Shown here: in pieces, positions 1,481 to 22,879 of the stretch
Numbering within the stretch: position 1 is the stretch's first letter
How the letters are laid out: each line of letters starts with the position of its first letter
Source: Cucumis sativus
Lineage: Eukaryota; Streptophyta; Magnoliopsida; Cucurbitales; Cucurbitaceae
Length of the DNA: 64,000 nt
Reading direction: 5' to 3'
Assembly (NCBI RefSeq): GCF_000004075.3
Contig: NC_026657.2
Coordinates: 9,548,001 to 9,612,000 of the forward strand
Notes under the pieces: generated by a model
Told to the model about the DNA's origin: nothing
Databases searched by the model: none
Seen by the model: the letters and a program-made list of their open reading frames with translations, nothing else
Position numbers and translations under genes: made by a program

Positions 1481-2880
1481 ATAATTAATTCTTAGTAGTT
1501 ATAACAAACAAAACTGTTAAGAAATAAACAATAAGACTCAGATTACTATTCTACCTCAAAAGTTGTCCTTTCATTTTTCTTTACCCCATTTCTCTTTCTC
1601 CTCCAAAACCTTATAACCTGTGTCCAATATATATTTGAATATGCAATAATTTCTCACCTAAGAATTAAGAGTGAGGGTTTTCTCATTAAGCAAGGAAGAA
1701 TATAATACAAGAGGTAATGTATAGAGAGTTTTAGTTATAAACTGCTCTTAATAAACTAACATAAAGTAATTATTATTTCAACTATACAACAGAATAGTTT
1801 TCTATTATTAACACACTAGAATACATTATACTTTGATCATTCTCATCATTTTTTATTTTATTTGGAGATACTATTTTGTTAAATATATATATACATCACT
1901 TTGTCTTTATTGATTTCAAATTTTAAAATTTGAAAACAAAAAAAAAGGTTTTTATTTTTGTCCAAATTTTTACATCGAAATGATAAAGGTCATGGTTAAA
2001 AAATGGGAAGAAAATGAATAAAAAAAAAATTAATTGAAAAATATCAAATGTGCTTTGAAGTTTTACATAATTTTACCTCATTATCTTGCCTACATGTTAT
2101 GGTTTTGTTCCTTTTTTTTTTCAAGTGTTAGACTTATCTGCAAAATCTATATAAATTCACATATTGAAGCAATGGATTTTTTTTTTTTAAAAAAATGTAA
2201 AGTGAGTCTAAATCATAAAATTGTTTATACTCGTTTGACAAAGTTTTTTTATAAATGTTTAAAAAATGTGTGATCAATAGTATAGGTTCAAACATTATAA
2301 GTATATGGAAGTTGAACGAAAGACTATAACATTTTTTAGTCCAACGATTGTTGGGATCAGATATACCAAAATGAGCTATTTGAAGTGTTGGAATCAGATA
2401 TACCAAAATGAACTATTTGAAGTATTGACCTCAAAGTTAGAAATTTGATTCAACTTTCACTCCCTGAATTGATTATAATATATTATAAGAAGGTGGTAGT
2501 TAATCAACTTATTTAATGATAGATGGTAGTTTAATTTGGTTTACTATTTGAAGCTCAAAATTGAACCTCAAAAGACTAAAGTTAAACAAAATATTAGAAC
2601 CTTCAATGGGCACGAAAGGATGGAACAAGAAATATGAGATAACATCAAAGCCCTCGCTAGCTTTTGGTGCAGTAGAGTAAATTTTTTATTCGAATTACAA
2701 TGCTAGTACTATAGTTTTAAATATCAACGCTCTTGTTTAATGTTGGGTCTATTGAAGCTTTTCTCTAGCCCTTTTTTCCTTGCTTCCTGTATTGACTTTT
2801 GAGTATTAATGGAGTAGAGATGATGAGGGTGTTAAGAGAGTGTCTATCTAATGGAGATATTTCGGTGCACCTATTGTATT
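1481..2880. other. AT-rich intergenic DNA
   Basis: This stretch has no convincing gene. It holds poly-A/T tracts and short open frames without family features. A short direct repeat with the core GATCAGATATACCAAAATGA recurs at about 2355 and 2393. The right end, from about 2870, grades into the promoter of the inhibitor pseudogene (TATAAA at 2904-2909). Confidence 0.6.
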
Positions 2881-2903
2881 AACATGTATTAACAAATATT
2901 GGC

Positions 2904-3498
2904 TATAAAATGAGACATTCCATTTGACCATCAAAACCAAAATCAAAATTAGAAGGATAGAAAGAGTTTGCAAATCCATACCTTATATATAACAAACAAA
3001 CCCTTCAGCCAATGGCTGAAGAACGAACCTGTTCACAGTAAGTTCATGCTACACTTATTTACATTAATCTATAACATGTATTTGATCAATTATCACAAAT
3101 ATTTTATGTTATAAGATTTGGCTTTGTTAATTAATTTGAAGTTTTGATTTTTTTTGTTGAATTATTTATGTAATTTAGGGGTTATATTCAATGAAAATGG
3201 TATCCTTTGATTGGATTATAGATGATATGTATGACAAAATTTAGCATAAGTATAATTCTTTAAATAGGAAAAATGGAATGACGAGAGTTTGTCTTTGGTA
3301 AAATTTTATGTTGCTGCTGCGATCATAGAAAAAGAAAATTTCGATGTGAAGGCTATCAAGATCCTAGCTGGTACTCCTAGAGTTCATAGTTTTGATGCTA
3401 CACAAGTTTGGGTTGATTGCAATATAGAAGACGTGGTTGTTCTAATCCCCTGGTTGGTTAGAAATTGGGTGATGTATAAGGTCAATCGTATATATTAA
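2904..3498 (+). pseudogene. Potato inhibitor I family pseudogene (copy A)
   Basis: A TATAAA box at 2904-2909 precedes an ATG at 3012. The first exon (3012 to about 3037, donor GTAAGT) has four extra bases relative to the 22-base first exon of its paralogues, which shifts the phase. The second exon starts near 3269 after an ATAG acceptor. In the ancestral frame the conserved Trp codon of the EWPE motif is TGA. One base is inserted shortly after it (TTTGGTAAAA against TTTGTAAAA in copy D), and one base is missing just before the normal stop (CCCTGGTT against CCCAAGGTT). The body is still recognisable: AAAIIEKENFDVKAIKILAG and QVWVDCNIEDVVV. It is a host gene copy that is very probably dead. It is closest in sequence to the intact copy at 21873. 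Confidence 0.85.
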
Positions 3499-3984
3499 TT
3501 CAAGAATGCCCTTCAATTGTACTGATCAAATATTTCAACTCGAATATTAAGTATTATCAAGTGTGTTTATTTATAATAAACGGTTGAATTAATTGTTCCA
3601 ATAAGCGTATCAACCAAGATCAAATTCTTAGATATTGTTCAAGTTTTATAAATTAGTTAACTAAGGAAAAGAGGTTGTGGCATAATTAAAGAGACACCTT
3701 TTTAAGTGATTTAGAAATTTTTATTAATTTTATATATTATCAATTTATGTTCGCGAATCATTTTCTTTTTTTATTTTGTTTTATATTTCTATCTTTTCCT
3801 AATCTCAATCTCCCTGGTCTTCTACTCCTCCCTTACTTTTCCGATTCTGTAAAATGTGTTAAAAAAATGGATTTGGCTTTAAATCTACTCCTACATAATC
3901 TTAATTAATTAAATGTACTCTTAAAAGTCGATAAGCTAAAGGTATTCCAAGATTATATTTAAATCCAAAAGAATTTTCTCTCAT

Positions 3985-4085
3985 CTCTTTCATTTCCCCG
4001 CTTCAAAGATGGTATCTCAACACCTTCACCGCCCTCGTCACAGCCACAACCCGAGGCAATAAAAGACCAGGGAGATAGGGAGAAG
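3985..4085. repeat. Conserved non-coding module, class I, after copy A
   Basis: This is a GC-richer block starting with CTTCAAAGATGGTATCTCAA, with CACCTTCACCGCCC and a CACAACCCGAGG core, then a purine-rich AATAAAAGACNAGGGAGATAG tail. Closely similar blocks occur at about 8470-8620, 11820-11975 and 20345-20510, always 3' of an inhibitor-gene position. It is best read as part of the duplicated unit. No conserved open frame was found. Confidence 0.7.
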
Positions 4086-4451
4086 AAAATAGATAAATAT
4101 AAAATCAAATGAATTTAGTTACCATCTTACATAGAAAACTAAAAAAAATATTTTTCTTTATTGTCTAATACTCTATCTCACAATATTATTCTTCAATAAT
4201 TTGTACCAGTTAGCGTGAGACCATATTATATCATCACCGAGTCAAAGAATGCTTATCTTTAATACGTACTTCAGATCATAATATATTTCAACATGATCAC
4301 TCAAAGATTGCATATCTTAATACGAACCTGCACGATTGTGAATCTGGAATCGACGGCCAGCCAGTCAGCCTCCGCGAAAGTCCGCAACATGGGCTGGCAA
4401 AGATGCCAAAGCAATTTTCGGATCAGGGTTGTGAAACTCACAAATATTGCC

Positions 4452-4457
4452 TATAAA
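4452..4457 (+). promoter_or_regulatory. TATA box of inhibitor copy B
   Basis: TATAAA lies in the context ATTGCCTATAAAACGG, about 100 bases before the ATG at 4556. The same box is at 12360-12365 for copy C and 21787-21792 for copy D, at a matching distance from the start codon. Confidence 0.7.
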
Positions 4458-4555
4458 ACGGCACATTTCCATTGCCTGTAAAATACCCAAATCAGAATTA
4501 AAAGGACAGCAAGAGTCTTCCAAATCCATACATATAATATACCCAACCTTCAACA

Positions 4556-5101
4556 ATGGCTGAAGAATCTGCTAGAGGTAAGTCCATTATATATATTCAC
4601 CCTATCAAATTGCTTTTTAATTTTTCAAAAATACTTGTTCCTAAGTAGTTTTAATTTCAAAACAATCTTGTTTTTGAGAAATTAGTTTAGATTTCGAATA
4701 AATATATGGTTTGTAAACTAAATGAAATTTTATCAACTATACAAGTATTGAAAGTCAAATGATATCAATTCAACACATAAAAACAATACCCCGATGCCTG
4801 TTTATGCAATTTGAGGTATATTCTACCAAAGGTTATACTTTGGTTGGATTTTAGATTATATCTATTTGCAAAATTTAACGTATAATCTATATATAATTCT
4901 TAAATAGAAAAAACTCAATGGCCAGAGCTTGTTGGCGTAGACTATTCTACTGCTGCTACGACAATAGAAACAGAGAATTCTCATGTGAAGGCTATCAAGT
5001 TTCTAGTTGGTAGTCCCATGTATCTGAATTTTGATCCTCGCCGAGTTCGGGTTGTTTGCGATACACAAGACAAGGTTGTTGAAATGCCCTACGTCGGTTA
5101 A
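4556..5101 (+). CDS. Potato inhibitor I family serine protease inhibitor (copy B)
   Basis: There are two exons, 4556-4577 and 4908-5101, joined in phase 1 (donor GTAAGT, acceptor TAAATAG). They give a 71-residue protein, the usual length for this small MEROPS I13 family, with no signal peptide. It starts MAEESAREKTQWPELVGVDY and ends VVEMPYVG. It keeps the WPELVG motif, the helix IETENSHVKAIK and the RV.V core strand after the binding loop. The loop reads GSPMYLNFDPRRV, so P1-P1' is predicted as Leu-Asn, suggesting chymotrypsin- or elastase-like targets (inference). The Cys pair of classical members (N-terminus and loop) is absent. A likely cytosolic or vacuolar defence protein. It lies in a tandem array with copy A upstream. 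The reading frame is intact. Confidence 0.88.
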
Positions 5102-5399
5102 AGATTGGGTGATGTGTATAAGGTGAATCATATGTATAATGTCTATGTCATTATGTCATTCCAATATTGTACTAATAAGCGGTATTTCTACTGTTTCAAC
5201 TCTTGTTTCAAGTGTGTTTATTTGTAATAAATTGTTGAATAAATTGTTCCAATAAACATCAACAAGGACCTATCTTTAGATATTGCTCATGCACGTATTA
5301 TATTCTTAATGTAAATTGTGGGCATTTCATCTAATCTATTGGTACGCCCACAAATAGAATTTAAATCTTAAAGCTTATCCCTTCCATTTCTTTCTTCAA

Positions 5400-5610
5400 T
5401 TCATGGGAGAGAAAAAGTTCACTTCAAAGATGGTTTTCCAATGGCTTTACCAACTTCGTCACCGCCACAACCCGAGGGCATCAGGTTACCGACTTTACTT
5501 CCCTTTCACTGTCTAACACATACACAATGACAAAAAATCCTCACTTCCCACGTTCGGATTTCCCCTCGAATGGCAAAGGCACGCAGTAAAAGATGAGGGA
5601 AAGGGAAAAA
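5400..5610. repeat. Conserved non-coding module, class II, after copy B
   Basis: This block lies 3' of copy B, with TTCCAATGGCTTTACCAAC, CGTCACCGCCACAACCCGAG, ACGACTTTACTTCCC-like and AACACATACACAATGAC motifs. The same block recurs at about 10150-10350 and 13330-13530. It shares the CACAACCCGAG core with the class I module but is otherwise distinct. It marks the end of the two-gene duplicon. Confidence 0.68.
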
Positions 5611-5719
5611 AGAGTTCAATGTAAAATAAAAAGAAAAGGATAATGGCACAGTTCCCATCTTAACATAAAATTTAAAATTCCTTTTCTTATTATCTAATAG
5701 TATATATCTCATAATATTA

Positions 5720-6784
5720 TAATATTATTTTTAGGGCGAATTTGTTAAGAGACAGAGTATGTGTCATATGTCACATTATTAAATTTTTTATTTTAATATT
5801 AATTTTGAAGTGTGTGAATTAAAAAATTTATATTAAATAATACTTTGCTTGTGTGCTGATTGTAACTTAGAGTTTGATTCTTACCAAAATCATAATTTAC
5901 AAGAAGAAAGAGAACATGATTTTTGGATTTATTGTATATGTGTTTTTCTTTCTTATATGTTCAAAAACATCCCATACCAAAAAATAAAAGTAATTATGTG
6001 AAGTTATTTAAAAAGTAAACTTTGTTTGACATTTTGCTTAACCTATAATCATTTTGGAAAAAACTGCGAAAAAGTGTATGAAATCGAGTGGTCATATTAA
6101 CTAGGAAGTTGAATAATGGATTATGGATATATGACAAACAAAATTATTGTTTGAGTAGCAAAAAAATGCATACAACCACACAGCTCAATCAACTTGTTTA
6201 ATTGTTTGGGTCATATATGTGTTTTTTAAATTTGGTTTTAGCTAAATGAGCAATTGTTTTTATACACATTCTCGTGTTCTATCTAACCATGGTAGTAAAC
6301 GGAGTAAAAACTCAAACAATCATTAACTTTATAATACTCCAAAAAAGTAAAATGTATTTATCCTTAGACCACATCATAAAAGCCATTAAATTTGTATTCA
6401 ATTCTGTTAAATTATGATCTTTTTATAAGCTTTGCTTCTAAGACCACGAAAATTTAGAGAAAGTTTTGTCTTTTATCCCATTAGAACTCAAATAACGGTG
6501 AAAATTAATGTGACCCTTCTAGCAAATTACCAAACAATAACATGTATGAACTAAATTAGTTAAATTCTAAGGTTGATAACCAATAACAGGTTGAAACACC
6601 CACGAGTCAAAGAGTATAAATGCCATGTGTTACGTTATACGTAATCTACGAAGGCTTATGAACTATTGGTTATCAACAACGAGGGTTGCCTAAGATCAAA
6701 GATATGGAGCACAACTTGGTAACTTGGAATTTTCAGATTAGGGTGTCCAACCTCTAGAATATTATTGTCTGTAAAATGAGACAT
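5720..6784 (+). repeat. Duplicated inhibitor 5'-flanking region (first copy)
   Basis: This roughly 1 kb segment is nearly the same as 10430-11400. Shared stretches include AACATGATTTTTGGATTTAT, GTAGCAAAAAAATGCATACA and AAAGAGTATAAATGCCATG. Parts also match the region before copy D (about 21100-21800). It ends in a degraded promoter (TGTAAAATGAGACAT where the paralogues have TATAAAATGAGACAT) and is then cut by the CACTA-like end at 6785. There is no coding sequence. Confidence 0.75.
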
Positions 6785-8040
6785 CACTACTACAAAATCT
6801 ACTTTACTTGACACTATGTACTTTTACATACTTGACATTTTTATTAAAAAAACGTCAAGTAATGATCATTTCAAAAGAAAAGCGTCAAGTATAGTTTAAA
6901 AAAAGGGAAACTTTCACGAAAGTTTTCAAACTATTTTACATTAGTTTTTACTTGACGTTTTTTTCGCGTCAAGTATAAGAGAGATTTTACTTGACGTTTT
7001 ATTCGCATCAAGTATAACGAACTTTTACTTGACGAGAACAAAATGTCAAGTATAACGAACTTTTACTTGACACGTTATACTTGACATGAACAAAACGTCA
7101 AATATAACGAACTTTTACTTGACGCGAACAAAACATCAAGTATAGTTTGAATACAGCAAAATTTCATGAAATTTTGAATTATTTTACGTTAGCTTTTACT
7201 TGACGTTTTTTTCCACGTCAAGTATAGTGCATAATTTACTTGACAGTCTTTTAGTGTCAAGTATAATGCAACTTTTACTTGACATCTTTTTCATGTCAAG
7301 TATAGTTAACATTTTTATTTTGTTAAGTATAAAAATATAAAAATACTTTTTATTTCTCTCTTTTAAATTTTTTTAGTTGGATTTCTACCAACGTTTATTT
7401 TAATTTATGGTCAAGTATCATGTGTGGATAAATATTTTAAACATTTGTCGACTTAATTTACGTGGCGAAAGATCCCACGCTTTTTAGACATATTTATGCC
7501 AACGTAATTTACGTGACGAAAGACTCTAAATTTTTTATATGAATTTATGATGACTCAAAATTTATACATATGACAACGAAAATAACATGAGCATATGTTT
7601 TTTTTTAAAAAAAATATAATTTCAGTTTTTTATGTTCTTTAAAAAAAAAACATAATCATTTTTTTATGTTTTTTTTTCTTTTTAACTTCTTCCTCATTTT
7701 TTACTTTTTCCCTCCAACATTTCCCTCCCACTTTCCTCACTCCCATACAACATTTCCCCCCAATTTGCCGCCTCCTCTTCTCACAGAACGCAACCCAACC
7801 ACTATCCTTCCGATTTCCCTCTTCCTCTTCTCACAACCTACCATCTGAACGCCGCCGCTACCCTTTCTCGATTTCCCTCTTCCTCTTATCGCAACCCACC
7901 ATCCAAATGTCGCCGCTATCCTCCCCATTTCCCTCTTCCTCTTCTCGCAACCCACCATTCGAACGTCGCTGCTACTTGCTACCATCTGAATGTCGCCGAA
8001 AGCCACTGCTATCTGCTAGCATCTGAACGTCGTTGGAGGC
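6785..8040 (+). mobile_element. CACTA-like element, left end with hairpin subterminal repeats; truncated
   Basis: CACTACTACAAAA begins at 6785, directly after the GAGACAT of an inhibitor promoter. From 6805 to about 7330 there are many ACTTGACG / CGTCAAGT units facing each other (for example ACTTGACG-T7-CGCGTCAAGT), typical of CACTA subterminal repeats. Beyond 7440 come TAATTTACGTGACGAAAGA repeats, then a C/T-rich imperfect tandem repeat at 7805-8030. No transposase coding sequence and no matching right terminus is visible. At about 8045 the sequence returns to inhibitor intron-like DNA (CATGCTACACTTATTTA, as at 3045). The element is therefore non-autonomous and has lost its right end, or was joined to other DNA by deletion. 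Confidence 0.65.
7805..8030. repeat. C/T-rich minisatellite, about 57-base unit, three to four imperfect copies
   Basis: Units begin near 7810, 7869 and 7926 with a partial one after. Each has a TTTCCCTCTTCCTCTTCTC core, then CGCAACCCACCAT, then a GAACGTCGCCGCTA-like part. Long open frames cross it on both strands only because of the repeat composition. They are not counted as genes. Confidence 0.7.
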
Positions 8041-8044
8041 CGCC

Positions 8045-8952
8045 ACTCATGCTACACTTATTTATATAACATGTATTTAATCAATTATCACAAGTAGTAC
8101 TTTCTTAGATATTACTCATGATCTATTCAGTAATTATTTAACCTTTCAAGTTCTATAAATTAGTTAAGTAACGAAAAAGAAGGTGTGGCATAATTAAAGA
8201 GACATTTTAAAGTGATTTAGAATTTTTATTAATTTTATATTATCAATTTATGTTGGCGAATCGTTTTCTTTTTTTTTTTATATTTCTATCTTTTCCTGAT
8301 CTCAATCTAACGGGTCTTCTACTCCTCTCTTACTTTTCCGATTCTTTAAAATGTGTTAAAAAAAATGAATTCGGCTTTAAATCTTAATTGATGTACTCTT
8401 GGAAGTAGACAAGCTAAAGGTATTCCAAGATTATATTTAAATTCAAAATAATTTTCTCTTTATCTCTTCCATTTCTCCACTTCAAAGATGGTATCTCAAC
8501 ACCTTCACCGCCCTTGTCACCGACACAACCCGAGGCAGTGGGTCAACAGCTTCACTGCCCATCTTTGGTTTTTCGTTTCTCAAGGCGAAGGCAATAAAAG
8601 ACGAGGGAGATAGACAGAAAAAAAATAGATAAATATAAAATCAAATCAACTTAGTTACCATCTTACACAGAAAACTAAAAAGTTCTACTTTATTATCTAA
8701 TTCTCCATCTCACTATATATTGTTCATTAATTATTTGTATAAATTAGCGTGACAACATATTATATCGTCATCGAGTCAAATAATGCTCATCTTAATACTT
8801 ACCTGCAGATCATTATATATTATAATATATTTCAACCTGATCACTCAAATAATGCATATCTGCAGATAATATATATTATAATACATATGGAACAGTGCGT
8901 TGATTTACGTATACTAAGAAGGATTGTGAATCTCGAATCTAGGGCCAGCTAG
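8045..8952 (+). repeat. Second inhibitor duplicon: 3' flank of lost copy A' and promoter of lost copy B'
   Basis: 8045-8100 matches the intron of copy A, and 8100-8740 matches the 3' flank of copy A at 3620-4200, including a class I module at about 8470-8620. 8741-8952 matches the upstream region of copies B and C (AATTAGCGTGA, GGATTGTGAATCT, GGCCAGC). Both genes that should sit here are gone. A' was lost to the CACTA-like element and an adjoining deletion. B' was replaced by the LTR-element fragment that starts about 8954. Confidence 0.75.
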
Positions 8953-8953
8953 G

Positions 8954-10150
8954 TGCAACGGACGTACTTGTCCAAAGTGTGTTTACCTATGGTCGTATGC
9001 TTTGATTAGTTCTAATTTATCTTGTCTTTATATCTTGTACATATAAGTCAATATTTTTGGGTGTGACGTTTTGGCATTTTCATATACAAGCCTACCGGAA
9101 CTGAAAATGTTCAAAATGTACTATAGGGGAGGCATACCTATTGAATCTCCGTTCAAGCCTTGTCGTACTCTTTGCAATCTATGCTTTCTGATTGCAATTG
9201 ACAGTCTTCAATGCTTGTTTTAACAACGTTTTCAATCAATTTAATCATATTTCACGTTTTCTAAAATATTTTTCTAAAAACGTGAGGGGAGGTTGAACCG
9301 TGTGTTAAAGTTGTCCGCGACTTGCGGATTTTGATCGACTGACTTGTTCGTCGAGTTAGAACAACTGCCGCATAATCGCTCACATCGTGTTTGAAGGGTT
9401 ATGATTGTGACAAGTGGTATCAGAGCCTAATTGGCTAGTTGAGAGTGCGAGACAGAAAGATGTCGGTGGCGAAACAATCTAGCAAGACCCATAATGAGCG
9501 ACTTATGGGAATCGAAGAGCAGATGCTCTACCTGGTGGAAGTTCCTGATTCCATTCGGTTTTTGGAACAGCGGCTTGAGGATATTGCCAAGAAGGCCGAT
9601 GGCATTGAAGCGGTGTCTGGTCGCATTGACAGACTATACATACAAGAGTTACTGACTAGAGTCGACACTCTGGAATCCCGAGTTATGAGAATGGGAAACG
9701 TTACCTACAGCGTGGGGACAATTCATTGGGCTCTATCACCCAGATGGAAGAACGAGTTATGGAGCTTGATAACTCGCAAAAGAACATGTTGGAGATTATC
9801 AACGGCATGACGGAGGATTTTCGAGCAACCCTCGATGTCGTGAGGAATGAGCTCACAGAGGTAAACACGGGAGTGAACCTTACTATGCGAGCATTAGCAA
9901 ACCAAGCTCCAGTTGGAGGAGCCATTCGTGTTGGCAGAATCAAGATTCTTGAGCCCAAGCCCTTTTGTGGGGCGAGAGATGTAAAGGCGTTGAAAAACTT
10001 CATCTTTGATGTTGAGCAGTATTTCAAGTCCACGAATACAGTTACTGAACAGGCCAAGGTGACATTGGCAACCATGCATCTGTCAGAAGATGCGAAGTTG
10101 TGATGGAGGTCCCGGTACATGGACATCCAAGAAGGGCGTTGCACAATGGT
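8954..10150 (+). mobile_element. Gypsy-type LTR retrotransposon fossil: LTR, primer-binding site and start of gag
   Basis: A terminal-repeat-like segment (about 8954-9412, beginning TG and ending CA) is followed by TGGTATCAGAGCC at 9415-9427, the usual primer-binding site for initiator tRNA-Met. A gag-like coding region follows to about 10120, with coiled-coil character and a KPFCGARDVKALKNFIFDVE motif typical of plant Ty3/Gypsy gag. Pol and the second LTR are absent. It is a broken fragment with about two reading-frame breaks in what remains. Its ends abut inhibitor duplicon DNA on both sides (promoter of B' at left, class II module at right). No age can be given because there is no LTR pair to compare. 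Confidence 0.75.
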
Positions 10151-11400
10151 CATCCAAGATGGTTTTCCAATGGCTTTACCAACCTCGTCATCGCCACAAC
10201 CCGAAGGCATCGGGTTAACGACTTTACTTCCCTTTCACTGTCTAACACATACACAATGACAAAAAATCCTCACTTCCTACGTTCGGATTTTCCTTCGAAT
10301 GGCAAAGGCACACAATAAAAAATGAGGGAAAGGGAAAAAAAAGAGTTAAATGTAAAATAAAAAGAAAAAGATAATGGCATAGTTCCCATCTTACATAATT
10401 TTAAGTTTTTTTTTTTTTTTTTTATCTAATAGTATATATCTTATTAAGAGCTCGTGCATATGTCACGTTATCGATTTTTATTTAATTTTAATATTAATTT
10501 TGAAGGATGAGAATTGAAATATATATTAAATAATATTTTACTTTAATAAATTCTTATGTGCTATTAATTTCTTATGTGCTTCACGCCATAGCCATAACCT
10601 CTAGGTTGAGAGTTTGATTCTTACCTAAATCAATAATTTACAATAAGAAAGAAAACATGATTTTTGGATTTATTCTATATGCGTTTTTCTTTCTTATATG
10701 TTCAGAACATCGCATACCAAAAAATGATTATGTGAAGTCATTTAAAAAGTAAACTTTCTTTGATATTTTGCTCAACTTATAATGATTTTGGAACCATGAA
10801 AAAGTGTATGAAATCGAGTGGTCATGTTAACTAGAAAGTTGAATAATGGATTATGGATATACGACAAACAAAATTATTGTTTGAGTAGCAAAAAAATGCA
10901 TACAACTACACAACTCAATCAACTTGATTAATTGATTTGGGTCATATATGTGTTATTTAAATTTGGTTTTAGCTAAATGAGCACTTGTTTTTATACACAT
11001 TTTCGTGTTCTATCTAACAATGATAGTAAACAGAGTAAAAACTCAAACAATCATTAACTTTATAATACTCCAAAAAAGTAAAATGTATTTATCCTTAGAC
11101 GACATCATAAAAGCCATTAAATTTGTATTCAATTCTGTTAAATTATGATCTTTTTATAAGCTTTTGCTTCCAAGACCACGAAAATTTAGAGAAAGTTTTG
11201 TCTTTTATCCCATCAGAACTCAAATAACGGTAAAAATTAATGTGACCCTTCTAGCAAATTACCAAACAATAACAGGTATGAACTAAATTAGTTAAATTCT
11301 AAGGTTGATAACCAATAACAGGTTGAAACACCCACGAGTCAAAGAGTATAAATGCCATGTGTTACGTTATACGTAATCTACGAAGGCTTATGAACTATTG
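10150..11400 (+). repeat. Class II module and duplicated 5'-flanking region (second copy)
   Basis: 10150-10430 matches 5440-5720 and 13340-13640. 10430-11400 matches 5740-6670 almost base for base, including AAAGAGTATAAATGCCATG. The promoter-like segment stops at about 11405 and the sequence jumps to the 3' flank type at about 11430. The inhibitor gene that should stand here has therefore been deleted. Confidence 0.75.
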
Positions 11401-11429
11401 GTTATATTTCCTTTACTTTCCTCCCGAAG

Positions 11430-12350
11430 TCCCCCTGAAGTTTTATAAATTAGTTAACTAACGAATAAGGGAAGCCCCTCAAGTTTTATAAATTAGTTAA
11501 CTAAGGAATAAGAAAAAGAGTGACGTAATTAAAGAGACACCTTTTTAAGTGATTTGGAAATTTTTATTAATTTTATATTATTAATTTATGTTGGCGAATC
11601 ATTTTCTTTTTTTATTTTGTTTTATATTTCCATCTTTTACTGATCTCAATCTCCCTGGTCTTCTACTCCTCTCTTACTTTTCCGATTCTGTAAAATGTGT
11701 TACAAAAATGGATTGGGCTTTAAATCTACTCCTACATAATCTTAATTAATGTACTCTTAGAAGTAGACAAGCTAAATGTATTCCAAGATTTAAATTCAAA
11801 AGAATTTTCTCTTATCTCTTCCATTTCTGATCCACTTCAAAGATAGTATCTCAACACCTTCACAGCCCTCGTCACCGCCACAACCCCAGGCAGTAGGTCA
11901 ACGGCTTCACTGCCTCTTTGGTTTTTCATTTCTCTCCAAGGCGAAGGCAATAAAAGACGAGGGAGATAGAGAGAAAAAAATAGATAAATATAAAATCAAA
12001 TGAAATTAGTTACCATCTCACAAACGTTATTCTTCAATTATTTGTATAAATTAGCGTGAGACCATATTATCTCATCACCCAATCAAAGAATGTTTATCTT
12101 AATACGTACCTGCAGATCATAATATATTATAATAAATTTCAACCTGATCACTCAAACAATAATGAATATCTCAATACGAATCTGCAGATAATATATTATA
12201 ATACATATAGAAGACTGCGTTAATTTAAGTAAACTAAGAAGGATTGTGAATCTGGAATCGACGGTCAGCCAGGCAGCCTCCGCAAAAGTCCACAACGTGA
12301 GCTGGGAAAGATGCCAAAGCAATTTTCGGATCAGGGTTTTGAAACTCACA
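11430..12350 (+). repeat. Third inhibitor duplicon 3' flank, class I module, and promoter of copy C
   Basis: AAGTTTTATAAATTAGTTAA occurs twice in tandem at about 11438 and 11480, a small local duplication at the deletion point. 11500-12050 matches 3660-4210, with the class I module at 11820-11975. 12050-12350 matches 4200-4440 and carries the promoter of copy C (TATAAA at 12360-12365). No other coding sequence is seen. Confidence 0.72.
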
Positions 12351-12462: not shown

Positions 12463-13009
12463 ATGGATGAAGAATTTGATACAAGTAAGTCCATTATAAA
12501 TACTCACCCTATCAAATTGCTTTTAATTTTTCAAAAATATTTGTTCCAAAGTTGTTTTAATTTCAAAACAATTTGTTTTTGAGTATTTTGTTTCGACTTC
12601 CATTAAATATATGGTCTGTAAACTAACATAAATTTGATCAACTATCACAAGTATTGGAAGTCAAATGATATCAATTCAATACACACCAAAACGATACCCC
12701 GATACCTGTTTATGCAATTTGAGTTATATTCTATCCAAGGGTATACTTTGGTTGGATTTTAGATTATATCTATTTGCAAAATTTAACATATAATCTATAT
12801 ATAATTCTTAAATAGGAAAATCTATATGGCCAGAGCTTGTTGGCGTAGACTTTTCTGCTGCTGCTAGGATAATAGAAACAGAGAATCCCAATGTGAAGGC
12901 TACCAAGATTCTAATCGGTAGTCCCGTGATTCTGAATTATGATCCTACCCGAGTTTGGGTTATTTGCAATACAGAAGATAAGGTTGTTGACATACCCCGC
13001 GTCGGTTAA
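12463..13009 (+). CDS. Potato inhibitor I family serine protease inhibitor (copy C)
   Basis: There are two exons, 12463-12484 and 12816-13009, with a phase 1 intron (donor GTAAGT, acceptor TAAATAG) and 71 residues. The protein starts MDEEFDTRKSIWPELVGVDF and continues with AAARIIETENPNVKATKI. The binding loop is GSPVILNYDPTRVWV, with predicted P1-P1' Leu-Asn. It ends VVDIPRVG. There is no signal peptide, and the classical Cys pair is missing; the single Cys lies in the later strand VICNTEDK. The gene, intron, promoter and 3' flank are close paralogues of copy B, consistent with segmental duplication. Expected role: inhibition of subtilisin- or chymotrypsin-type proteases of insects or microbes (family knowledge). 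Confidence 0.88.
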
Positions 13010-13329
13010 CGATTGGACGATGTGTATAAGGTGAATCATATGTATAATGTTTATGCATATGTCTAAGTGAATTATATGCTTAATCATGTCATTCCATCAT
13101 GGTACTAATAAGTGGAATTTCTACCATTTCAACTCTTGTTTTGAGTGTGTTTATTTGTAATAAATTGTTCCAATAAACATCAACAGAATTTAAATATTGT
13201 TCATGCAAGTTTTATAATCTTAATGTAAATTGTGGGCATCTCATTATGTTCTATTGGTACCCACAAACAGAAGTTAAATCCCAAAGGATTCTCTCTTATC
13301 TCTTCTATTTCTTTCTTCAATTCATTGGA

Positions 13330-13530
13330 GATAAAAAGTTCACTTCAAAGATGGTTTCTCCAATGGCTTTACCGACCTCGTCACCAGTAGAACCTGAGGG
13401 CACCGGGTTAACGACTTTACTTCCCTTTCACTATCTAACACATACACAATGACAAAAATCCTCACTTCCCACCTTCGGATTTTGCTCCCGTATAGCAAAG
13501 GCAGTAAAAGATGGGGGAGAGGGAGAAAAA
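13330..13530. repeat. Conserved non-coding module, class II, after copy C
   Basis: This is the third class II module, with the TTACCGACCTCGTCACC, GGGTTAACGACTTTACTTCC and CACATACACAATGAC blocks seen also at 5440 and 10160. It lies about 320 bases 3' of the stop of copy C, the same spacing as after copy B. Confidence 0.65.
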
Positions 13531-13639
13531 AAAGTTAAATATAAAATAAAAAGAAAAAGAAAATGACTTAGTTAATTCCCATCTTACAAAAAAATTATTA
13601 TTTTTTATTATCTAATAGTATATCTCAAACCATATTTTT

Positions 13640-16600
13640 ATTTATTAAACTACAAATTCACCCAAAAGCTTAAGCTCATGGTTGAAGGCAAATTTAAGAT
13701 CGTTAACTCATATAGCCTAAATTGTATATGATATTACCTGAGAAGTTTAATTTTCTAATAAATTTCACAAATGTCCTAAATGAGCCTCCATGTTACACAA
13801 GTGTATGATCCAAATTACTTTAATACTCATTTCTATTATTTAATTAATTTATAACAAATATCTGAAAAGAAAAAATCATGAGAAACGATTTTTGAAAGAA
13901 GTGGAAAACTATTTAATGTTTTTCTTGTGCGAAAACGATCATCTACTCATTTCAACGTGGGTTACAATTTTTACAGAGAACTTTTAGAGAGTTCGGAGGT
14001 GAAGAAAAAGACATTCGACGGCGGACAAATACAAAACTTCTCGGGTATAATACTTTAACATCGTAGGAGTCACTTCTCCTAGACCTTATACTCTTTTTGG
14101 TTACAAAGAGAAACTAAAAATAATCAGACTTGTAGTCATTTATTTTTATCCTACATATTTTTTAAAAAAAATAATATTAGTAATAATGACTAAACTTTTA
14201 TTTATTTATTTTAAAAAATGGTAAAAAAAAATTAGTAATAACATAATATCTGATTTTGATCGTTTTAGAAAATAAAAACAAATCCATTTATTTTAAATGA
14301 AATCTTTTAATATCAAAGAATTTATTTAGTTTTAAATAAAATATTTTAAAAAAAACATATTTCAACTCATTTTAGGAAAAAATACATTAATAAAATCTTT
14401 GACTTATTTTATATCATTTTTTAAAAAAATAAATTCAATTTTTTTAAAAAAAATCTTTTAATATCCATTTAATTTATTAATTAATTTTGCACAAAATTTC
14501 AAAATATCTCATTTAATTAAATTTATTTATTTTGGGAAAATGAAATTTATTTTATTAATATAATATCAAATTTTGATTTTTATTCTTATTATTTTTTCTA
14601 ATTTATGGTACACTTCCGGTCTATATACCTATACCTTTGTCATTTGGAAAATGGAAGGAAAAAAGTTCTTACAAAAAAAAAAATCTTTAGAGAAAAGTTG
14701 TTAAAAAAAATTGGGAGAATATGAAGAAAAGTTTTCTCTAAAATGTAGGTTTTTTTTTTATTCACTTCATTATGTTAGTATCTTTACCATTTTTTGTTTT
14801 GGTATTTTTTTTTATTTATCTTTACCAAATCAAATCTTGTGTTCAAATAAACTTTGTTAGAGGTTACATGTGGTAGAGTTTTACTCTCAAGGATTCGCAC
14901 CTCATCGACCAATAATTTTCTTTCGGATTTGATCTTTTTTGTTATCTTTTTTTTTTCGTTAAAGATAGAGAGAAAGAAAAAATTGTATAAGACTTTTTTT
15001 AATTTTTTTTGGCTTTCTTTTACTTTTACTTTTACTGTTATTTTTATAAAAAGAAGAAACCTTAGTTTTGTTCTTCTCCCTAAATGATAGAGAATTTTTA
15101 ACTCTCGATCTTTATTTTCATCTTTCTAAAAATATGGAGGGAAGGAATGAACAGTATCATCTTTCTAAAAATATGGAGGGAAGGAATGAACAATAGAGAA
15201 TTATGTAATTATTATAAATATATATATATATATATATATTATTGTTATGGTACTCATATTTATATTTATTGATGTCTTCTTTCTATTACTACTATAAGTC
15301 GTTGATATTCTTTTTATATTACTATTTATTCTCTATTAATTATCTTATTATTATTACTTTATATATATATATATATATATTTCTTTTCATTACTGCTTCT
15401 TTTTGTTTCTTTCCTTATTTTATTTACATGATTATGTTTTTCTTCCTTTTACTTATTCTCACTACTATCCTAATAATTATTGTTACAGGCACTTAAAAGC
15501 TAATTTTTTTTTTTTGTATTTTAAGTTTTTCAATGTTTTAAAATTATTCTAATTTAAAAGTCTCTATGTTTTTTTTTAAAAAAAAAACTCTTTGTTAATC
15601 ATTTAGCAAATTTTATCTAATGTTATAATTTTTTTTAATGTTTTTAAACTTTCAAAATTTAATCTAGAGTAGTTTCCTAAATGAATATTTTTTAATAACT
15701 TAACCATTTTCTTTAAATAAAATCCTACGATGAAATTTAGAAAATTTGGGAGTCCGATTTTCTAGATTTCTTGAAGTGATGAATCACTCCTGAAAGTCCA
15801 AGATATGATCCCAAGAAAAAATGAATTTAATCAATGTTTTAAAAAAAAATTAATCGAAGACTAACCTATGATAGATTTTGAGAAATTGTAATAATTCTCC
15901 ATTTTCTTAAAATGAGAAGTTTCTTTCAATATATAGTCTAATTAAAATATCTATTTCACTTATTTTTTGAGATTATTGCTTCAATATTGGAGTAATGAGG
16001 GGTAAAATAAGACATTAGTTTTAAAATAAATAAATAAAATATTTTCAATTCGAGGTTTGAAATTTGGTCATTGTTTTTCTAAATGGGTGTTGTAGAGTGC
16101 TAATATCTTATTTACACACAAATGAATTCGGAACTCAATTCTATTTTTCGCAGACCATTTTTTAAAAATTGTTTAACTTTATTTCGGTGTTCAATCACAC
16201 TGTAAAAATGATTGGTGACGACTCTTATTTTCTTTTAAAAAAAACTAACTCTTTTGAGGACGTCGACCGTTCTGCGTCGTCTCGGGCACGTGGTGACAAG
16301 ACTCTCTGCTATAAAAGTCTTCTTTAAATATCTTATCTCGATACAATGAAATCACTCGTAAAGATATCAAGAATTCTCATAAAATAAAGAATATAACAAA
16401 TTTACCTTCGTGCAGATTCTTCGCCAACAAAAATATAAACTTCTAAACAGAAGCTATGAAGAATAGATTGTTTAGAGAACTTTTGGTTTTGAAAGAGGGA
16501 AGAAAGTCTTTTCTTTGAAAAGAAGGGAAGGAGGTATTTATGATAAAATATTCCTAAATACGATCAAAATCTTTTATCTTGGTTTAAAGCATATTTGGTA

Positions 16601-16850
16601 TCTTTTCTTTAAATAAAAAGAGAACTAACTCCATATTTGTTAAAAAAAAATCAAACAAAATAAAAAATAGAAAAGACTCGAAACCAAGGAGAAAAATAAC
16701 AAAGAATGATTCGGAGATGATGAAAGGAAAAAGAAGTGAAATGGAGATTTGGATGAAGAAAAAAAGTGAAAAAGAAGAAGAAATTAAAGAAAACGGAGAG
16801 AGAGGAGATGGTGGAGGAAGGAAGAAGAAAGAGAATAATTTCTTTTTAAA
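13640..16850. other. AT-rich intergenic DNA without recognised genes
   Basis: Long A/T runs fill this stretch. It includes (TA)n microsatellites at about 15222-15240 and 15360-15380 and a perfect-looking 39-base tandem duplication (units starting 15118 and 15157, core AAAAATATGGAGGGAAGGAA). Around 16200-16310, a GGTGACGACTCTTATTT segment followed by a GC-richer GACGTCGACCGTTCTGCGTC stretch resembles non-coding DNA of LTR elements, but too little is left to classify it. No gene can be supported. Confidence 0.55.
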
Positions 16851-17226
16851 AAATAATCAAAAAGAAGATTGAAACGTGGCATCATAAAAATGGGTCACGT
16901 GGAAGGATGCAGGTGTAGGTGACACCCGCAAGCACCCAAGTTTTACTCTTTCGAAAAGAGGACAACGATTGGGTATAATCTTAATTCTTATTATAAAAAG
17001 CGTCAAAATAATTTCATCTTTTTTACTCCCTTCCTCCACGATCTTAAACGAAGAAACATGATTTTTGGATTTATTCTGCATGCCTTTTTTTTTCTTATAG
17101 GTTCAAAACATCCCCTACCAAAAACGATCTAAAGTCATTTCAAAAGTAAATTGGGTTGAAAGCTTAAATTGGGTTCACAAAATACAAAAGAGAAGAAGAG
17201 AAGGTTCTTCAACAGAAAACCCTCGC

Positions 17227-17399: not shown

Positions 17400-17660
17400 T
17401 GACCATTTAAGAAATAATAATTAAAGATATAGCAACAGTTAAAAAAATTTACAAATATAGTAAAACTATCGCTGATAGACTTGTATCGCAAACAGATTCG
17501 TATGATCTATAAGTGATAGACGAATATTTACAACATAGTCTATCGGTGATAGACCTCTATCATTGATAGAATTTGACAAATTTTGCTATATTTGCAATTT
17601 TTTTAAAATCTTGCTACATACTTAATTATTTTGAATTTAATTGCTAAATTTGCAACTATC
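17400..17660. repeat. GATAGAC-rich interspersed repeat
   Basis: This segment contains repeated GATAGACTTGTATC, CTATCGGTGATAGAC and CATTGATAGAATTTG motifs, framed by AATATAGTAAAACTATCGC and TTTGCTATATTTGCAAT. Related, more diverged stretches occur at about 42050-42230, 47930-48040, 56740-56870 and 62570-62860. The pattern fits a dispersed MITE-like or other short repeat. No terminal inverted repeat could be fixed by eye. Confidence 0.5.
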
Positions 17661-17664
17661 CCAA

Positions 17665-19970
17665 TAACTAATGGGTTGTCTTAACACCCCCTTGCAAACT
17701 AATGGTTGTTGCGTCAATAAGTGTGATTTTGTTCTTCAACTTGTGAAATGATGAAGTAGACAATGGTTTGGTAAGAATATATGCAACTTGTTGTGACGCT
17801 GGAAGATGACATACATAGATTTTCTTCTTTTGAACCAAATCCCAAACAAAGTAAATATCAAATTCAACATGTTTCGTTCTTGAGTGTAATATGGGATTAG
17901 CACTTACGTGAACTGCACTCAAATTATCACACCACACAATAGAAAGATGAGGTATAGTGATGCATGAGTCAAATAATAGAGAACGAATCCATACTAATTC
18001 AGTACCAAGTAAAGCAAGACATCTGTATTTAGCTTCAATACTAGATTTATATATAATGGACTGTTTCTTTGATCTCCAAGATACTAAATTGTTACCAAAG
18101 TAAACACAATAGTGTGATGTAGGCTTTCTATCATCAGGATCAGAAGCCCAATCGGCATCAACAAAACCAACAAGTGATAATTCATTAGTACGTCTAAGCC
18201 ATAAACCATGAGATAAAGCATCTTTGAGGTATCTTAGAATGTGATTTATGTGTTGTCAATGAGCAATTTTAGGAGAATACATAAATTGACATGCTTTATT
18301 CATACTATATGATATCTTAGGATGTGTAAGAGTAGTATATTGTAATGCACCAACAGTACTACGATACATATACACATCATGAAAGTCTTCACCTTGATGA
18401 ACAGAAAGTAATGGTTCACTTATCATTGGAGTTGAGATTGGTTTTGCCTCAATCATGTCTGTCTTCTACAACAGATCAGTAATGTATTTTGTTTGAGACA
18501 AAAACATACCTCCATTTGTAGGACATGATACTTCCACTCCAAGAAAATACCTAAGCGTCGCAAGGTCTTCAAGAGCAAAGTTACTATTAAAGACTTAATC
18601 AAATCATCCAAGATTTTATCAGAATTTTCCGTGATAATTAGATCATCAACATATACTAGAATATAACAACATGAAATAGGAGTTATTCTAATTAACATAG
18701 ATGAGTTAGCTTTGGATGTTCTGAAGCCTAAGGTATGTAAACTACATTTTAACTTTTCATACCATGTCTGAGGTGCTTGTTTTAGTGCATAGATAGCTTT
18801 CTTTAGATGACAAACCAGAGGATGATGTGTTTTTACTTCAAACCCATAAGGTTGATCCATATAAACATTTTCTTCTAATTCACCATGTAAAAATGTGTTA
18901 TTAACATCAAGTTGCTTTATATATCATCCATTCATAATAGCAATGGTTAGATGCATATGTATTGTAACTGGTTTCACAACAGGGTTAAATGTCTCATTGT
19001 AATCTATGTTCGGTGTTTGATGAAACCCTTTAGCAAATAATCGAGCTTTATATCTAGCAATTAACCCATCAAAGTTCATTTTGATTTTAAAAGCCCATTT
19101 GCAACCAACAATTTTTTTATTATCTTATTTGTGAGTGAGACTCCATGTGTTATTTTGTTTTAAAGCTTTAAATTCTTCTTCCATAGCTTTCCTCCATTGA
19201 GGATACTTTAAAGCGTGTTTAGCAGTAGTAGGTTCAATCAGAGTGAAAGTTTTAGGTTTATAAATATCACTTTTGCTTCGAGTTACCATTTGATGAGTAT
19301 TGAGATTTAAGGACTGATTTGTATTGGTGGAGTCATCTTGGGTCTGTGATGATATTTGTTCATCCTCATTGTCTCCTCTTGGTAATCCATCTCCATATTG
19401 TTCCTGACTTCCTGTTTCTAAGGGATACACAGCAGTAGAATTCAATTTATCATTGTGATCAGTAAATGTATCAGTGTGTTGCCTCTCTTCATTATGATTC
19501 ATTGTTGGCTTATGGACGATGGACTGGATTGGAGAAGCCAATACATTTTTTGTTGATAAAGTTTTACAATGAGATGAGAAAGATGCATATAGTGAAATGA
19601 ATTTTCATCAAATAGAACATGTTTGGATATGTAAATGCGGCCATCTTGAGAAAGACATTTATAACCTTTGTGGGATGAACTGTAGCCCAGGAAGGTACAT
19701 GGTGTGGATCTGTAAGATAGTTTGTGGAATTGATAAGGTCTGATGAAAGTATAACATTTACAACCTAAATTTTTTAGAGAATAGTTAGGTTTCTGACCAA
19801 ATAACTTCTCCAATGGACTAAGTTGATTAAAAATAGGTGTGGGTAGGCGATTGATAAGATACACGTCTAGAGAAAGCTTCATCCCAAAAAGTTAAAGGTA
19901 AAGTAACTTGAGAGAGAAGAGTAAGGCTCATGTCCATAATGTGTCTATGTCTTCTCTCAACTATTCCATT
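17665..19970 (-). mobile_element. Ty1/Copia LTR retrotransposon fossil, pol part only
   Basis: Read on the minus strand from about 19970 down to 17665, the sequence shows in order the end of the integrase region, the linker before reverse transcriptase, reverse transcriptase (LKKAIYALKQAPQTWYEKL and a YVDD box), and RNase H (MWCDNLSAVHVSANPILHSR, SRTKHVEFD, ILTKPLS). Gag, protease, the integrase core and both LTRs are not seen. The copy is clearly broken, with at least five reading-frame interruptions. It is an old fossil by the amount of decay, but without an LTR pair no date is possible. Its left neighbour is the GATAGAC repeat. At its right edge, inhibitor 3'-flank DNA resumes (TTTATTTGTAATAGACTGTT), so it lies in a former inhibitor copy. 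Confidence 0.85.
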
Positions 19971-20640
19971 TTCAAGTTTGTTTATTTGTAATAGACTGTT
20001 GAATTAATGGTTCCAATAATAATATCAACCAAGATCAATTCTTAGATATTGTTCGTGCAAGTGTCATCTTGATATATTCAATAATTATTTAGCCGTTCAA
20101 GTTCTAAAAATTAGGGGAAAATATATTTTCGGTCCTTAAAATATTAATCATCCCTGGTCTGCTACACCTCTCAATTACTCCTCTCTTACTTTTCCGATTC
20201 TGTAAAATGTGTTTTTTTTTTAAAAAAAAAGTTTGGCTCTAAATCTAGTCCTACATAATTTTAATTAATGTACTATTAGAATTAGACAAGGTAAAGGTAT
20301 TCCAAGATTTAAATTCAAAAGAATTTTCTCTTATGTCTTCCATTTCTGATCACACTTCAAAGATGGTATCTCAACACCTTCACCGCCACAACCCGAGACA
20401 GTGGGTCAACGGCTTCACTTTCCTTTAACAAAAGCAACAAAAATCCTCACTGCCCATCTTTGGGTTTTCCTCTCTCAAGGCCAAGGCAATAAAAGACGAG
20501 GGAGATAGAGGAAATATAAAATCAAATGAACTTAATTACAAAGAAAACTAAAAAAATCTAATTTATTATCTAATACTATATCTCACATTATTATTCTTCA
20601 ACTATTTGTATTAACTAGCGGAGGCCATATTTATTCATAT
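19971..20640 (+). repeat. Inhibitor 3' flank and class I module (fourth duplicon remnant)
   Basis: The segment matches 3565-4200 (TTGAATTAATGGTTCCAATA, CTCTCTTACTTTTCCGATTC, CTTCAAAGATGGTATCTCAA). It is what remains 3' of another lost inhibitor gene. The class I module is at about 20345-20510. Confidence 0.7.
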
Positions 20641-20959
20641 ATAACTTGATCGCACAACTGACTTTCAAAGCCTAAGAATGGGAGAAATGTAGGAAGGGAT
20701 AGAAAAGAAGAGAAGAAAAAAAGCAATAGCAAAAATACCTAATTGTGAGGGTTTAATGGGCGAATGAAGACAAAATGAATGGAAGATTTGAAAAAATTAC
20801 TGTACAATTGTTCTAAAATGCTACTGATTGTGATTACGCGTAGAACAAAATTGGTGTAACTAAAAAGGATAATGGATGGGTGTAACCTTGACTTTCTAAA
20901 AAACACTAAAAAAAATTCTACCACTTTTTATAAAAAGAAAAAGAGAAAAAAAACTTTTG

Positions 20960-21785
20960 TTTTAACAAGGATGTTGATATGCCTACTTTATCCACATACT
21001 TCAATGAATAACTTCTATCTGGATGTTTAAGTTTCTCCCATCTTCATTTTTACTTATATATCTATACTAAAAATGATTTTAATTTTTAATATTTTGCTAA
21101 ATTGATTGAAAAAGACACAAAAATATATACAAATAAAAATAAGTCATCATTTAGCTAGGAAGTTGTATAAACAAAGACATGACAAAAACATACATACCTA
21201 TAGTTCACGTAGCAAAAGGTGCATAATTACACAACCCAATCACGGTTAATTGTTTAGGTAGTATCTTAAGTAGCTAAATGACCACTCATTTTTATACATT
21301 TTTTTTTTTTTTTTGTTTCTCCTAACTATGCTAGTACACAAAACAAAAACTCTAACAAGCTTTGACTTTAATACTCCAAACCAAAAATGTATCTAAGCAT
21401 AAACATTGAAAAGCCATTAATATATATATATATATAAAGAACTGCATTTTTTTACAAACATGGATAGAAAGGCCACGAAAAAAACGTATGAAAAGTCTTG
21501 CCATTCTAGCAAAATAAACTACAAGTGGGAACTAAATTAGTTAATTATTCAAAGGATGAAACATCCCTGAATCAAAGAATGCTTATCTTAATATATACCT
21601 GCACATAATATATAATAATACATATTGGCCATTTGTAATAGACGTAATCTATGAAGGCTTATGCATTCGTAATCGCCGGCCAGTCACCGCTAAATCCACA
21701 ACGTGGGCTGCCAAAGATCAAAGATGCCTGACAACTTGGCGGCAACTTGGGATTTCCAGAGGCTTTCGAAGCTCTCAAATATTGG
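20960..21785 (+). promoter_or_regulatory. 5'-flanking region of inhibitor copy D
   Basis: This is a diverged relative of the duplicated flank at 5990-6780 (GCTAGGAAGTTG, GTAGCAAAAGGTGCATAA, CTACGAAGGCTTATG-like). It ends in GGCTATAAAATGAGACATTT with the TATA box at 21787-21792, about 85 bases before the ATG. Confidence 0.6.
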
Positions 21786-21872
21786 CTATAAAATGAGACA
21801 TTTCATTGGCCATCAAAACCCAAATTAAAATTAAAGAGTCTGCAAATCCATACATTTATACTAACCTTCAAT

Positions 21873-22279
21873 ATGGCTGAAGAATCTGCTCCAAGTAAGT
21901 TCATCCTATCAAAACGATCTTTTTTGAGAAACTAGTTTCGATTGAACGGTTTGTAAACTAACTTGAATTTGACTTTATTCAATTTGAAGTTTTGTATATT
22001 TTGTGTTTGTCAGAGGGTATACTTTGATTGGATTTTAGTTGATATCTATTGCAAAGTTTAACATAAATATATAATTCTTAAATAGGAAAAACTGAATGGC
22101 CAGAGCTTGTCTTTGTAAAATATTCTATTGCTGCTGCGATCATAGAAAAAGAGAATCCTGATGTGGAAGCTGTCAAGATTCTATCTGGTACACCTAGAAT
22201 TCTGAATTTTGATATCAATCGAGTTTGGGTTGATATCAATGTGGAAGAAGTAGTCGTGAAAAAGCCCAAGGTTGGTTAG
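21873..22279 (+). CDS. Potato inhibitor I family serine protease inhibitor (copy D)
   Basis: There are two exons, 21873-21894 and 22086-22279, with a phase 1 intron of 191 bases and 71 residues. The protein starts MAEESAPRKTEWPELVFVKY, then AAAIIEKENPDVEAVKILSG. The binding loop TPRILNFDINRVWV has predicted P1-P1' Leu-Asn, and the C-terminus is VVVKKPKVG. It contains no Cys at all, so the disulfide that ties the loop to the N-terminus in classical members is absent. It is the only intact gene of the copy A type; copy A at 3012 is its broken sister. The second residue after WPELV is Phe rather than Gly. Likely a cytosolic or vacuolar defence inhibitor (family knowledge). Confidence 0.88.
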
Positions 22280-22879
22280 AGACTGGATGATGTATAAGGT
22301 TAATCATATGTCAAATGCTTATTTATGTCCATCATCAATTGTACTAATAAGTGGTATTTCTACCATTTCAACTCATCGTTCCAATATTGTTATTATTATT
22401 AATTGTGCTGATATGTAATAAATTGTCAAATTAATTGTTACCATCATTGTCAACAAAGATCAATTCTTAGATACCGTCTACGCAAGTTTCATGATAATTA
22501 TTAATTGGTTTTCGAGTTTTCCAAATTAAGTTTGTAATCTCACAATAACGTAATTTAGGTCCCGTCTGGAGACCATTTTGTCGCCCATTTCCTATATATG
22601 GCTCACAATGATATACATCTTTCAGCTTATTTCCTATCTCTTAGGTAATTTTTGTATATCATTATTTATAATTTAGAGGTCTGGAATGAAATATTTTTCT
22701 TGTTATTCATATACGATGCTTTATTTGGAAATCAAGGCCCACCGTTTCCTCATCATTGTTTTCACGGACTCAAAGTTCCTTTACAAGCAAACCCAGAATA
22801 CGCTACCTTCTTATCAACCCCCGCTTAAAAGTCTTGAAATGACTGTCAGAAGTTAAAATTTTGCACTCAAATGCATTTG

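Follow-up and report, generated by a model that had tools for sequence, protein, structure and literature searches.

A likely tandemly duplicated array of potato inhibitor I genes in cucumber and the varied lesions at its gene positions

The DNA analyzed here is a stretch of 64,000 nucleotides from Cucumis sativus (contig NC_026657.2, positions 9,548,001 to 9,612,000 of the forward strand), called the window below and numbered from its first letter. Between 2.9 and 22.5 kb it carries four copies of a two-exon potato inhibitor I gene. One of them, A1, is broken, and three, B1, B3 and A5, are intact. The intact copies score 71.6, 72.0 and 60.3 bits, respectively, against the PF00280 profile, all above its curated cut-off of 24.5 bits. 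Around the genes lie recurring noncoding segments, which we term flank F, class I module and class II module.

Layout of the array

Self-BLAST of the 2.8-22.5 kb segment yielded 36 repeat matches with 11,640 aligned bases, and dinucleotide-preserving shuffles of the same segment gave no match in 50 out of 50 cases. As a control, the remaining 41.5 kb of the window contained a single repeat match, which joins two other inhibitor exons; positions 1-2880 had none in the self-comparison. At least two of the 36 matches fall within a CACTA-type transposon piece and are not unit repeats. Nearly all matches chain in one single order, in which flank F comes first, followed by the A gene with the class I module and then the B gene with the class II module. 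Parallel diagonals run from 3639-5729 to 11479-13646 (in two pieces), from 3638-4317 to 8145-8861, from 5424-6673 to 10153-11405 and from 8146-8953 to 11479-12273, and further matches reach 20.2-20.6 kb and 21.3-22.5 kb. The first-pass annotation of this DNA had proposed the order A, class I, B, class II, flank, and the collinear diagonals bear this out. The similarity extends well past the coding exons, as exon 2 of B1 and B3 is 84.5% identical, compared with 91.8% for the intron and 91.0% for class I. Flanks F2 and F3 (5745-6673 and 10445-11405) share 93.7% identity over 908 aligned bases and the B genes with their flanks (4335-5300 and 12243-13220) 90.0% over 944, in ranges close to those that the first-pass annotation had named for its own test of unit duplication. 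Thus, the array shows the collinear parallel diagonals, noncoding flanks included, and the similar divergence of a tandem duplicon, although the divergence is not uniform in F.

Flank F sits 5' of A, as seen at 21.24-21.80 kb where it runs into A5, and therefore the natural unit is F-A-I-B-II. All units share one orientation, and about four copies of this unit are followed by an F-A5 pair that closes the array. Unit 1 consists of A1, class I, B1 and class II; no F sequence was found upstream of A1, which forms the left edge. Unit 2 contains F2, a remnant of A2, class I, a Gypsy-type piece at the B position and class II, and unit 3 contains F3, class I, B3 and class II with the A gene missing. 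Unit 4 comprises a remnant of F4, assigned on about 100 bases, a scrap of the A4 3' untranslated region (UTR) beside a Copia pol fragment, and class I, with B and class II missing. In total we count five A and four B positions. The fourth partial unit previously placed at 20-22 kb stands as far as its class I module is concerned and gains the F4 and A4 remnants, but A5 belongs to the older F-A5 pair and not to this unit (Table 1).

Table 1. Coordinates of the array features and of the neighboring inhibitor exons
Feature	Position	Strand	Details
A1, disrupted inhibitor gene	2892..3640	+	start 3012, exon 2 from 3268; matches A5 21776-22473
Class I module, unit 1	3641..4320	+	
B1 proximal promoter and 5'UTR	4404..4555	+	TATA-like CTATAAAA at 4451
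B1 gene, intact, 71 amino acids (aa)	4556..5101	+	exons 4556-4577, 4908-5101; PF00280 E=8.7e-20
Class II module, unit 1	5424..5712	+	
Flank F2	5745..6673	+	
A2 promoter remnant	6672..6784	+	74% to 21694-21801 upstream of A5
CACTA-type transposon end at A2 exon 1 position	6785..8047	+	
A2 intron stub (8048-8097) and 3' flank	8048..8147	+	42/43 aligned bases as in A1 intron
Class I module, unit 2	8148..8952	+	
Gypsy-type fragment at B2 position	8953..10152	+	primer-binding-site (PBS)-like TGGTATCAGAGC at 9415, gag-like frame
Class II module, unit 2	10153..10442	+	
Flank F3	10445..11405	+	
A3 deletion junction	11406..11479	+	short filler, small direct duplication; A3 position inferred from order
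Class I module, unit 3	11480..12242	+	
B3 gene, intact, 71 aa	12463..13009	+	exons 12463-12484, 12816-13009; PF00280 E=6.6e-20
Class II module, unit 3	13345..13628	+	
Flank F4 remnant	17051..17150	+	84-87% to F2/F3, E down to 5e-23
Copia pol fragment, ending at A4 remnant	17668..19967	-	
A4 remnant, 3'UTR only	19968..20067	+	88.6% to 3553-3640, E=1.3e-24
Class I module, unit 4	20176..20632	+	
Old flank F5 and A5 promoter	21240..21801	+	
A5 gene, intact, 71 aa	21873..22279	+	exons 21873-21894, 22086-22279; PF00280 E=2.9e-16
Exon 2 of neighboring inhibitor genes	37806-37994 (-), 40134-40325, 44038-44229, 46868-47056 (-), 49235-49426		

Intact and damaged gene positions

The nearest solved structure of A5 is the pumpkin inhibitor CMTI-V (1tin, E=4.7e-13), and those of B1 are DCHP and the Hevea inhibitor HPI. 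The predicted model of the B1 exon 2 domain (mean pLDDT 91) has the alpha/beta fold of the CI-2/BGIT type, with TMq values of 0.96 to the bitter gourd trypsin inhibitor 1vbw, 0.94 to 9blj and 0.92 to 2ci2 among the best 50 of 234 matches. In this family the arginine of an RV motif that follows the reactive loop steadies the loop. R45-V46 is invariant in all eight intact proteins of the window, and the disrupted A1 has a glutamine for the arginine. Threonine at P2 and aspartate or glutamate at P1' are usual, but not obligatory, loop residues. They are not found in A5 and B3 (Ile-Leu-Asn) or in B1 (Tyr-Leu-Asn), while four of the five neighboring inhibitor genes have Thr and Asp and the one at 40.1 kb reads Val-Thr-Asn. 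A pair of cysteines, one N-terminal and one in the loop, is likewise absent from A5, B1 and B3 and present in all five neighbors. In a tree of 12 proteins the A and B genes form one group with 100/100 support; the 37.8 kb gene pairs with CMTI-V, a hint of a cucurbit source, although the 90/90 support is below what the program counts as firm. B1, B3 and A5 are predicted to be canonical-loop serine protease inhibitors. All three have leucine at P1, a position placed by alignment to CMTI-V, and therefore their predicted targets are chymotrypsin- or subtilisin-like proteases. A defense role is predicted from family membership. The five neighboring genes, at 37.8-49.4 kb, have open frames, belong to the Cys-containing type and lie on both strands. 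By alignment their P1 residues are Lys, Thr, Gln, Ala and Gln.

The damaged positions differ from each other. Compared to A5, A1 has gained 4 bp in exon 1. Its exon 2 carries a 1-bp insertion, a 1-bp gap close to the C-terminus and, in the ancestral frame, a change of TGG to TGA at the Trp codon of WPEL. Exon 2 still contains one open frame, but the annotated exon 1 does not run into it; the open stretch 3298-3456 matches PF00280 with E=2.2e-6 (28.6 bits). A1 had been described as point-mutated, and while it is indeed disrupted, the lesions are small indels plus a stop codon. At A2 a CACTA-type end lies where the first-pass annotation saw one, yet it did not replace the entire gene, since the promoter (6672-6784) and an intron stub (8048-8097) remain on either side. 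This piece, which we take to be of CACTA type, has one exact terminal CACTACTACAAAA at 6785 and subterminal ACTTGAC repeats. The forward 13-mer has three other matches in the window at up to two mismatches, and no reverse end was found within the window at the same stringency. The A gene of unit 3 is missing, in agreement with the deletion proposed before, with a short filler at the joint. At A4 only the 3'UTR scrap is left, abutting the broken end of the Copia fragment, in which Pfam recognizes RVT_2 (E=5e-20 and 2.2e-13) and SH3_retrovirus (E=3.1e-20). The frame at 17668-18255 has no Pfam match, and the two ends of the fragment presumably encode integrase and RNase H.

Among the B positions, B1 and B3 survive and B2 holds the Gypsy-type piece, all as the first-pass annotation had stated, and A5 also proved intact. 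The Gypsy-type piece has a weak Ty3_capsid match below the Pfam cut-off (E=0.0026) and no Pfam match in its other frame at 9460-9810, so that the label leans on the PBS-like site and the gag-like frame. Judged from the frames present, both retroelement pieces look truncated. Nothing was found of B4; between class I of unit 4 and F5 there is no B or class II match, and its position is inferred from the order. The three losses that are joined to transposon pieces (A2, B2 and A4) fit either an insertion with a later deletion or the capture of element pieces when a break was repaired. With B1 and B3 still intact, a Gypsy-type piece in the place of B2 and no trace of B4, the B losses must post-date the duplication, and they differ from each other. 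Independent loss, as originally claimed for both genes, holds for B. For A it does not follow, because A2, A3 and A4 keep no exon to compare with A1 and the gene could have been defunct before the unit was duplicated. Overall, the lesions at the A and B positions range from small indels through a CACTA-type end flanked by a deletion and fragments of Gypsy- and Copia-type elements to plain absence.

Duplication history and divergence of B1 and B3

The class I modules of units 1 to 3 are about equidistant, with Kimura two-parameter distances (K2P) of 0.116, 0.098 and 0.098, and the three possible pairings are supported by 28, 24 and 29 sites, a star-like pattern. The corresponding distances are 0.107 for B1 and B3, 0.091, 0.153 and 0.141 for class II, and 0.066 for F2 and F3. 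Units 1 to 3 are thus similarly diverged (K2P 0.07-0.15), which argues that whole units were duplicated. The class I core of unit 4 lies at 0.114-0.132 from units 1 to 3, and the A4 scrap at 0.111 from A1 (9 of 87 bases differ). A1 and A5 are separated by 0.303 over the gene and 0.237 over the region of the A4 scrap, and F2 and F5 by 0.48-0.54 depending on the range taken. With 0.24-0.54 for the F5-A5 pair against the lower values within units 1 to 4, these four units stem from one period and A5 is older. A much older unit 4, suggested by a K2P of 0.24-0.27 over all of class I, was rejected as an artefact of the poorly alignable stretch 20060-20175. A duplication order taken from ungapped repeats, which joined units 1 and 3 in class I and units 1 and 2 in class II, was dropped as the gapped class I alignment is star-like.

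Of the changes that separate B1 from B3, 32 are nonsynonymous and 3 synonymous, with nonsynonymous (dN) and synonymous (dS) divergences of 0.226 and 0.064, and dN exceeds dS in 99.65% of bootstraps (2000 drawn, undefined ones dropped). The exons differ more (35/216) than the noncoding sequence (166/1756; two-sided p=0.004). Nonsynonymous sites exceed noncoding sites outside the promoter window (one-sided p=5e-4) and also synonymous sites (one-sided p=0.017, with site counts rounded). In a neutral simulation three or fewer synonymous changes occurred in 0.52-0.56% of runs (5000 each way). The proximal promoter at 4404-4555 is 98.0% identical, with 3 of 151 bases differing compared to 163 of 1605 elsewhere; the p value of 1.5e-4 is optimistic since this window was chosen after seeing sliding identities. 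B1 and B3 differ at P2 and P3. The comparison suggests that diversifying selection may have acted on the two genes with P1 unchanged.

We read the locus as potato inhibitor I genes (MEROPS I13) arrayed locally in tandem, with whole-unit duplication, varied lesions and selection on B1 and B3, and as one reading give this a probability of about 0.88. The similar divergence between units 1 to 4 is what duplication of whole units within a short period would produce. Copies would have multiplied by unequal exchange between repeats, some sequence exchange between repeats might have followed, and protein-level selection would have made B1 and B3 diverge, with the proximal promoter staying unchanged. 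Copies were duplicated, and some were lost and others kept, with three intact genes at nine A and B positions. This amounts to birth-and-death turnover, and on this point the first-pass annotation was right, given unit duplication and different lesions at different positions. Several observations weigh against this reading. The A3 and B4 positions hold no gene sequence and follow from the order alone, and unit 4 is fragmentary. Class II favors units 1 and 2 (24 sites versus 9 and 11). F2 and F3 differ at 40 of 311 bases (12.9%; 87.1% identical) in the left part and at 17 of 597 (2.8%; 97.2% identical) in the right part (6077-6673 versus 10807-11405), a contrast with a Fisher p of 2e-8 that is optimistic as the border at 6077 was picked after seeing sliding identities. 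Such non-uniform divergence means that exchange at a later time, or duplication in steps, has also contributed. As to selection, the synonymous sites of B1 and B3 alone do not differ from noncoding sequence (p=0.47), the dN/dS ratios of B1-A5 and B3-A5 are 0.99 and 0.81, and the signal comes from one pair of 71-codon genes, the young pair among three pairs tested. The similarity of the right part of F suggests recent sequence exchange, and later exchange between repeats would be the likeliest cause of the uneven divergence in both F and class II. The right part of F is highly similar even though neither copy still has its neighboring A gene.

The same repeats might in principle have arisen differently. 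If class I and class II were a mobile repeat resembling a miniature inverted-repeat transposable element (MITE), inserted independently beside inhibitor genes, the apparent unit would be accidental, and class I does have imperfect inverted arms (3770-3824 and 4060-4113, 78-80% complementary). However, the module order is constant between units, homology continues through genes, introns, UTRs and flank F, and outside the array the 64 kb contain only one AT-rich 33-base piece matching a stretch of class I (E=0.007). In addition, both classes occupy the same place, class I downstream of A and class II downstream of B. Independent insertion is improbable. The two classes are in fact homologous (4001-4056 versus 5422-5477, 80%; 8552-8733 versus 13462-13647, 68%), and gene homology reaches up to both. 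Because they are diverged homologues collinear with the genes, an older one-gene unit was probably duplicated to give A and B before the A+B unit itself was duplicated. More remote still is an assembly artefact in which alternative haplotypes were placed end to end; units 1 and 2 are alike in length and order, but about 10% divergence, unit-specific insertions and mosaic similarity are unlike two alleles.

For B1 and B3 the weighing is closer. The nonsynonymous excess may also stem from a relaxation of constraint, from chance or from gene conversion by another paralogue, and although we favor positive selection we take this seriously, as the genes are small with 35 changes in total, sliding identities that showed the exon to be less similar had prompted the test of this pair, and the other pairs have dN/dS near 1 or lower. 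Relaxation, however, predicts that dN rises up to dS, whereas the observed dN amounts to 3.6 times dS and roughly double the divergence of noncoding sequence; so few synonymous changes are rare under neutrality, as the simulation shows; and a diverged paralogue acting as conversion donor should have introduced synonymous changes too. A bolder and rather doubtful proposal is an inhibitor lineage without the loop disulfide in which a shared promoter and the P1 leucine are kept and selection alters the remainder of the protein, with P2, P3 and large parts of the scaffold among the changed sites. If true, specificity or target contact would be tuned outside P1, or the proteins would be turning to a new partner. 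The conserved promoter next to a fast-changing exon makes adaptive divergence directly testable with relatives.

Surroundings and known systems

The array adjoins a long open frame with an FHA domain (24208-25650, minus strand; PF00498, E=2.7e-15). Between class II of unit 3 and the F4 remnant lie about 3.4 kb of AT-rich sequence (13650-17030). No termini that would mark 13.65-17.03 kb as a single element occur among the longest 25 of 125 inverted repeat pairs, most of which are AT-rich, and self-BLAST found no direct repeat of at least 60 bases there. A MITE-like element at 17405-17641, to which one of these 25 pairs belongs, has 61-nt arms that are 77% complementary and a related copy at 42068-42163 (72%). 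At the left window edge, 178-429 (minus strand) encodes part of a plant transposase of the Ptta/En/Spm type (PF03004, E=6.8e-13). No structured RNA was found in the array, including the well-conserved F, at Rfam gathering scores, the sole Rfam match of the window being a MIR166 microRNA precursor at 58550-58646 (plus strand, 84.1 bits).

The A and B proteins share profile, fold and a length of about 70 aa with PF00280/MEROPS I13 members such as CMTI-V of Cucurbita maxima (1tin), BGIT (1vbw) and Hevea HPI (9blj). Like HPI in the aligned stretch, they have no cysteine in the reactive loop. CMTI-V, in contrast, has the N-terminal and loop cysteines and Thr-Lys-Asp, whereas the A and B proteins lack both cysteines and have Ile or Tyr at P2 followed by Leu-Asn at P1-P1'. 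Tandem clusters are known from tomato, where the potato inhibitor I genes SlPI32-SlPI45 likewise expanded by tandem duplication (PMC7017114); the available part of that account is a gene list, in which modular units with dead positions are not described. In Cucumis sativus the Pin-I family has expanded to 21 members (PMC4189545), likewise a large cucurbit family, and the available part of this survey gives gene counts and a tree but no locus structure. The potato type II inhibitors, as far as the partial text goes (PMC2259423), are duplicated plant inhibitors under diversifying selection, as proposed here for B1 and B3. There, however, P1 is the site under positive selection and the Cys scaffold is constrained, while in B1 and B3 the P1 leucine is unchanged and the changes are protein-wide. 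A literature search of titles and abstract openings found no description of this array, which is not proof of its absence from print. The general phenomenon is already well known, and the locus is a clear fresh instance of birth-and-death evolution in an inhibitor family. It offers a compact record of growth and decay, with genes that are still intact, disrupted by indels, interrupted by a DNA transposon, displaced by retroelement fragments or deleted. Its less usual traits are the missing Cys pair, Leu-Asn at P1-P1' and a divergence that is spread outside P1.

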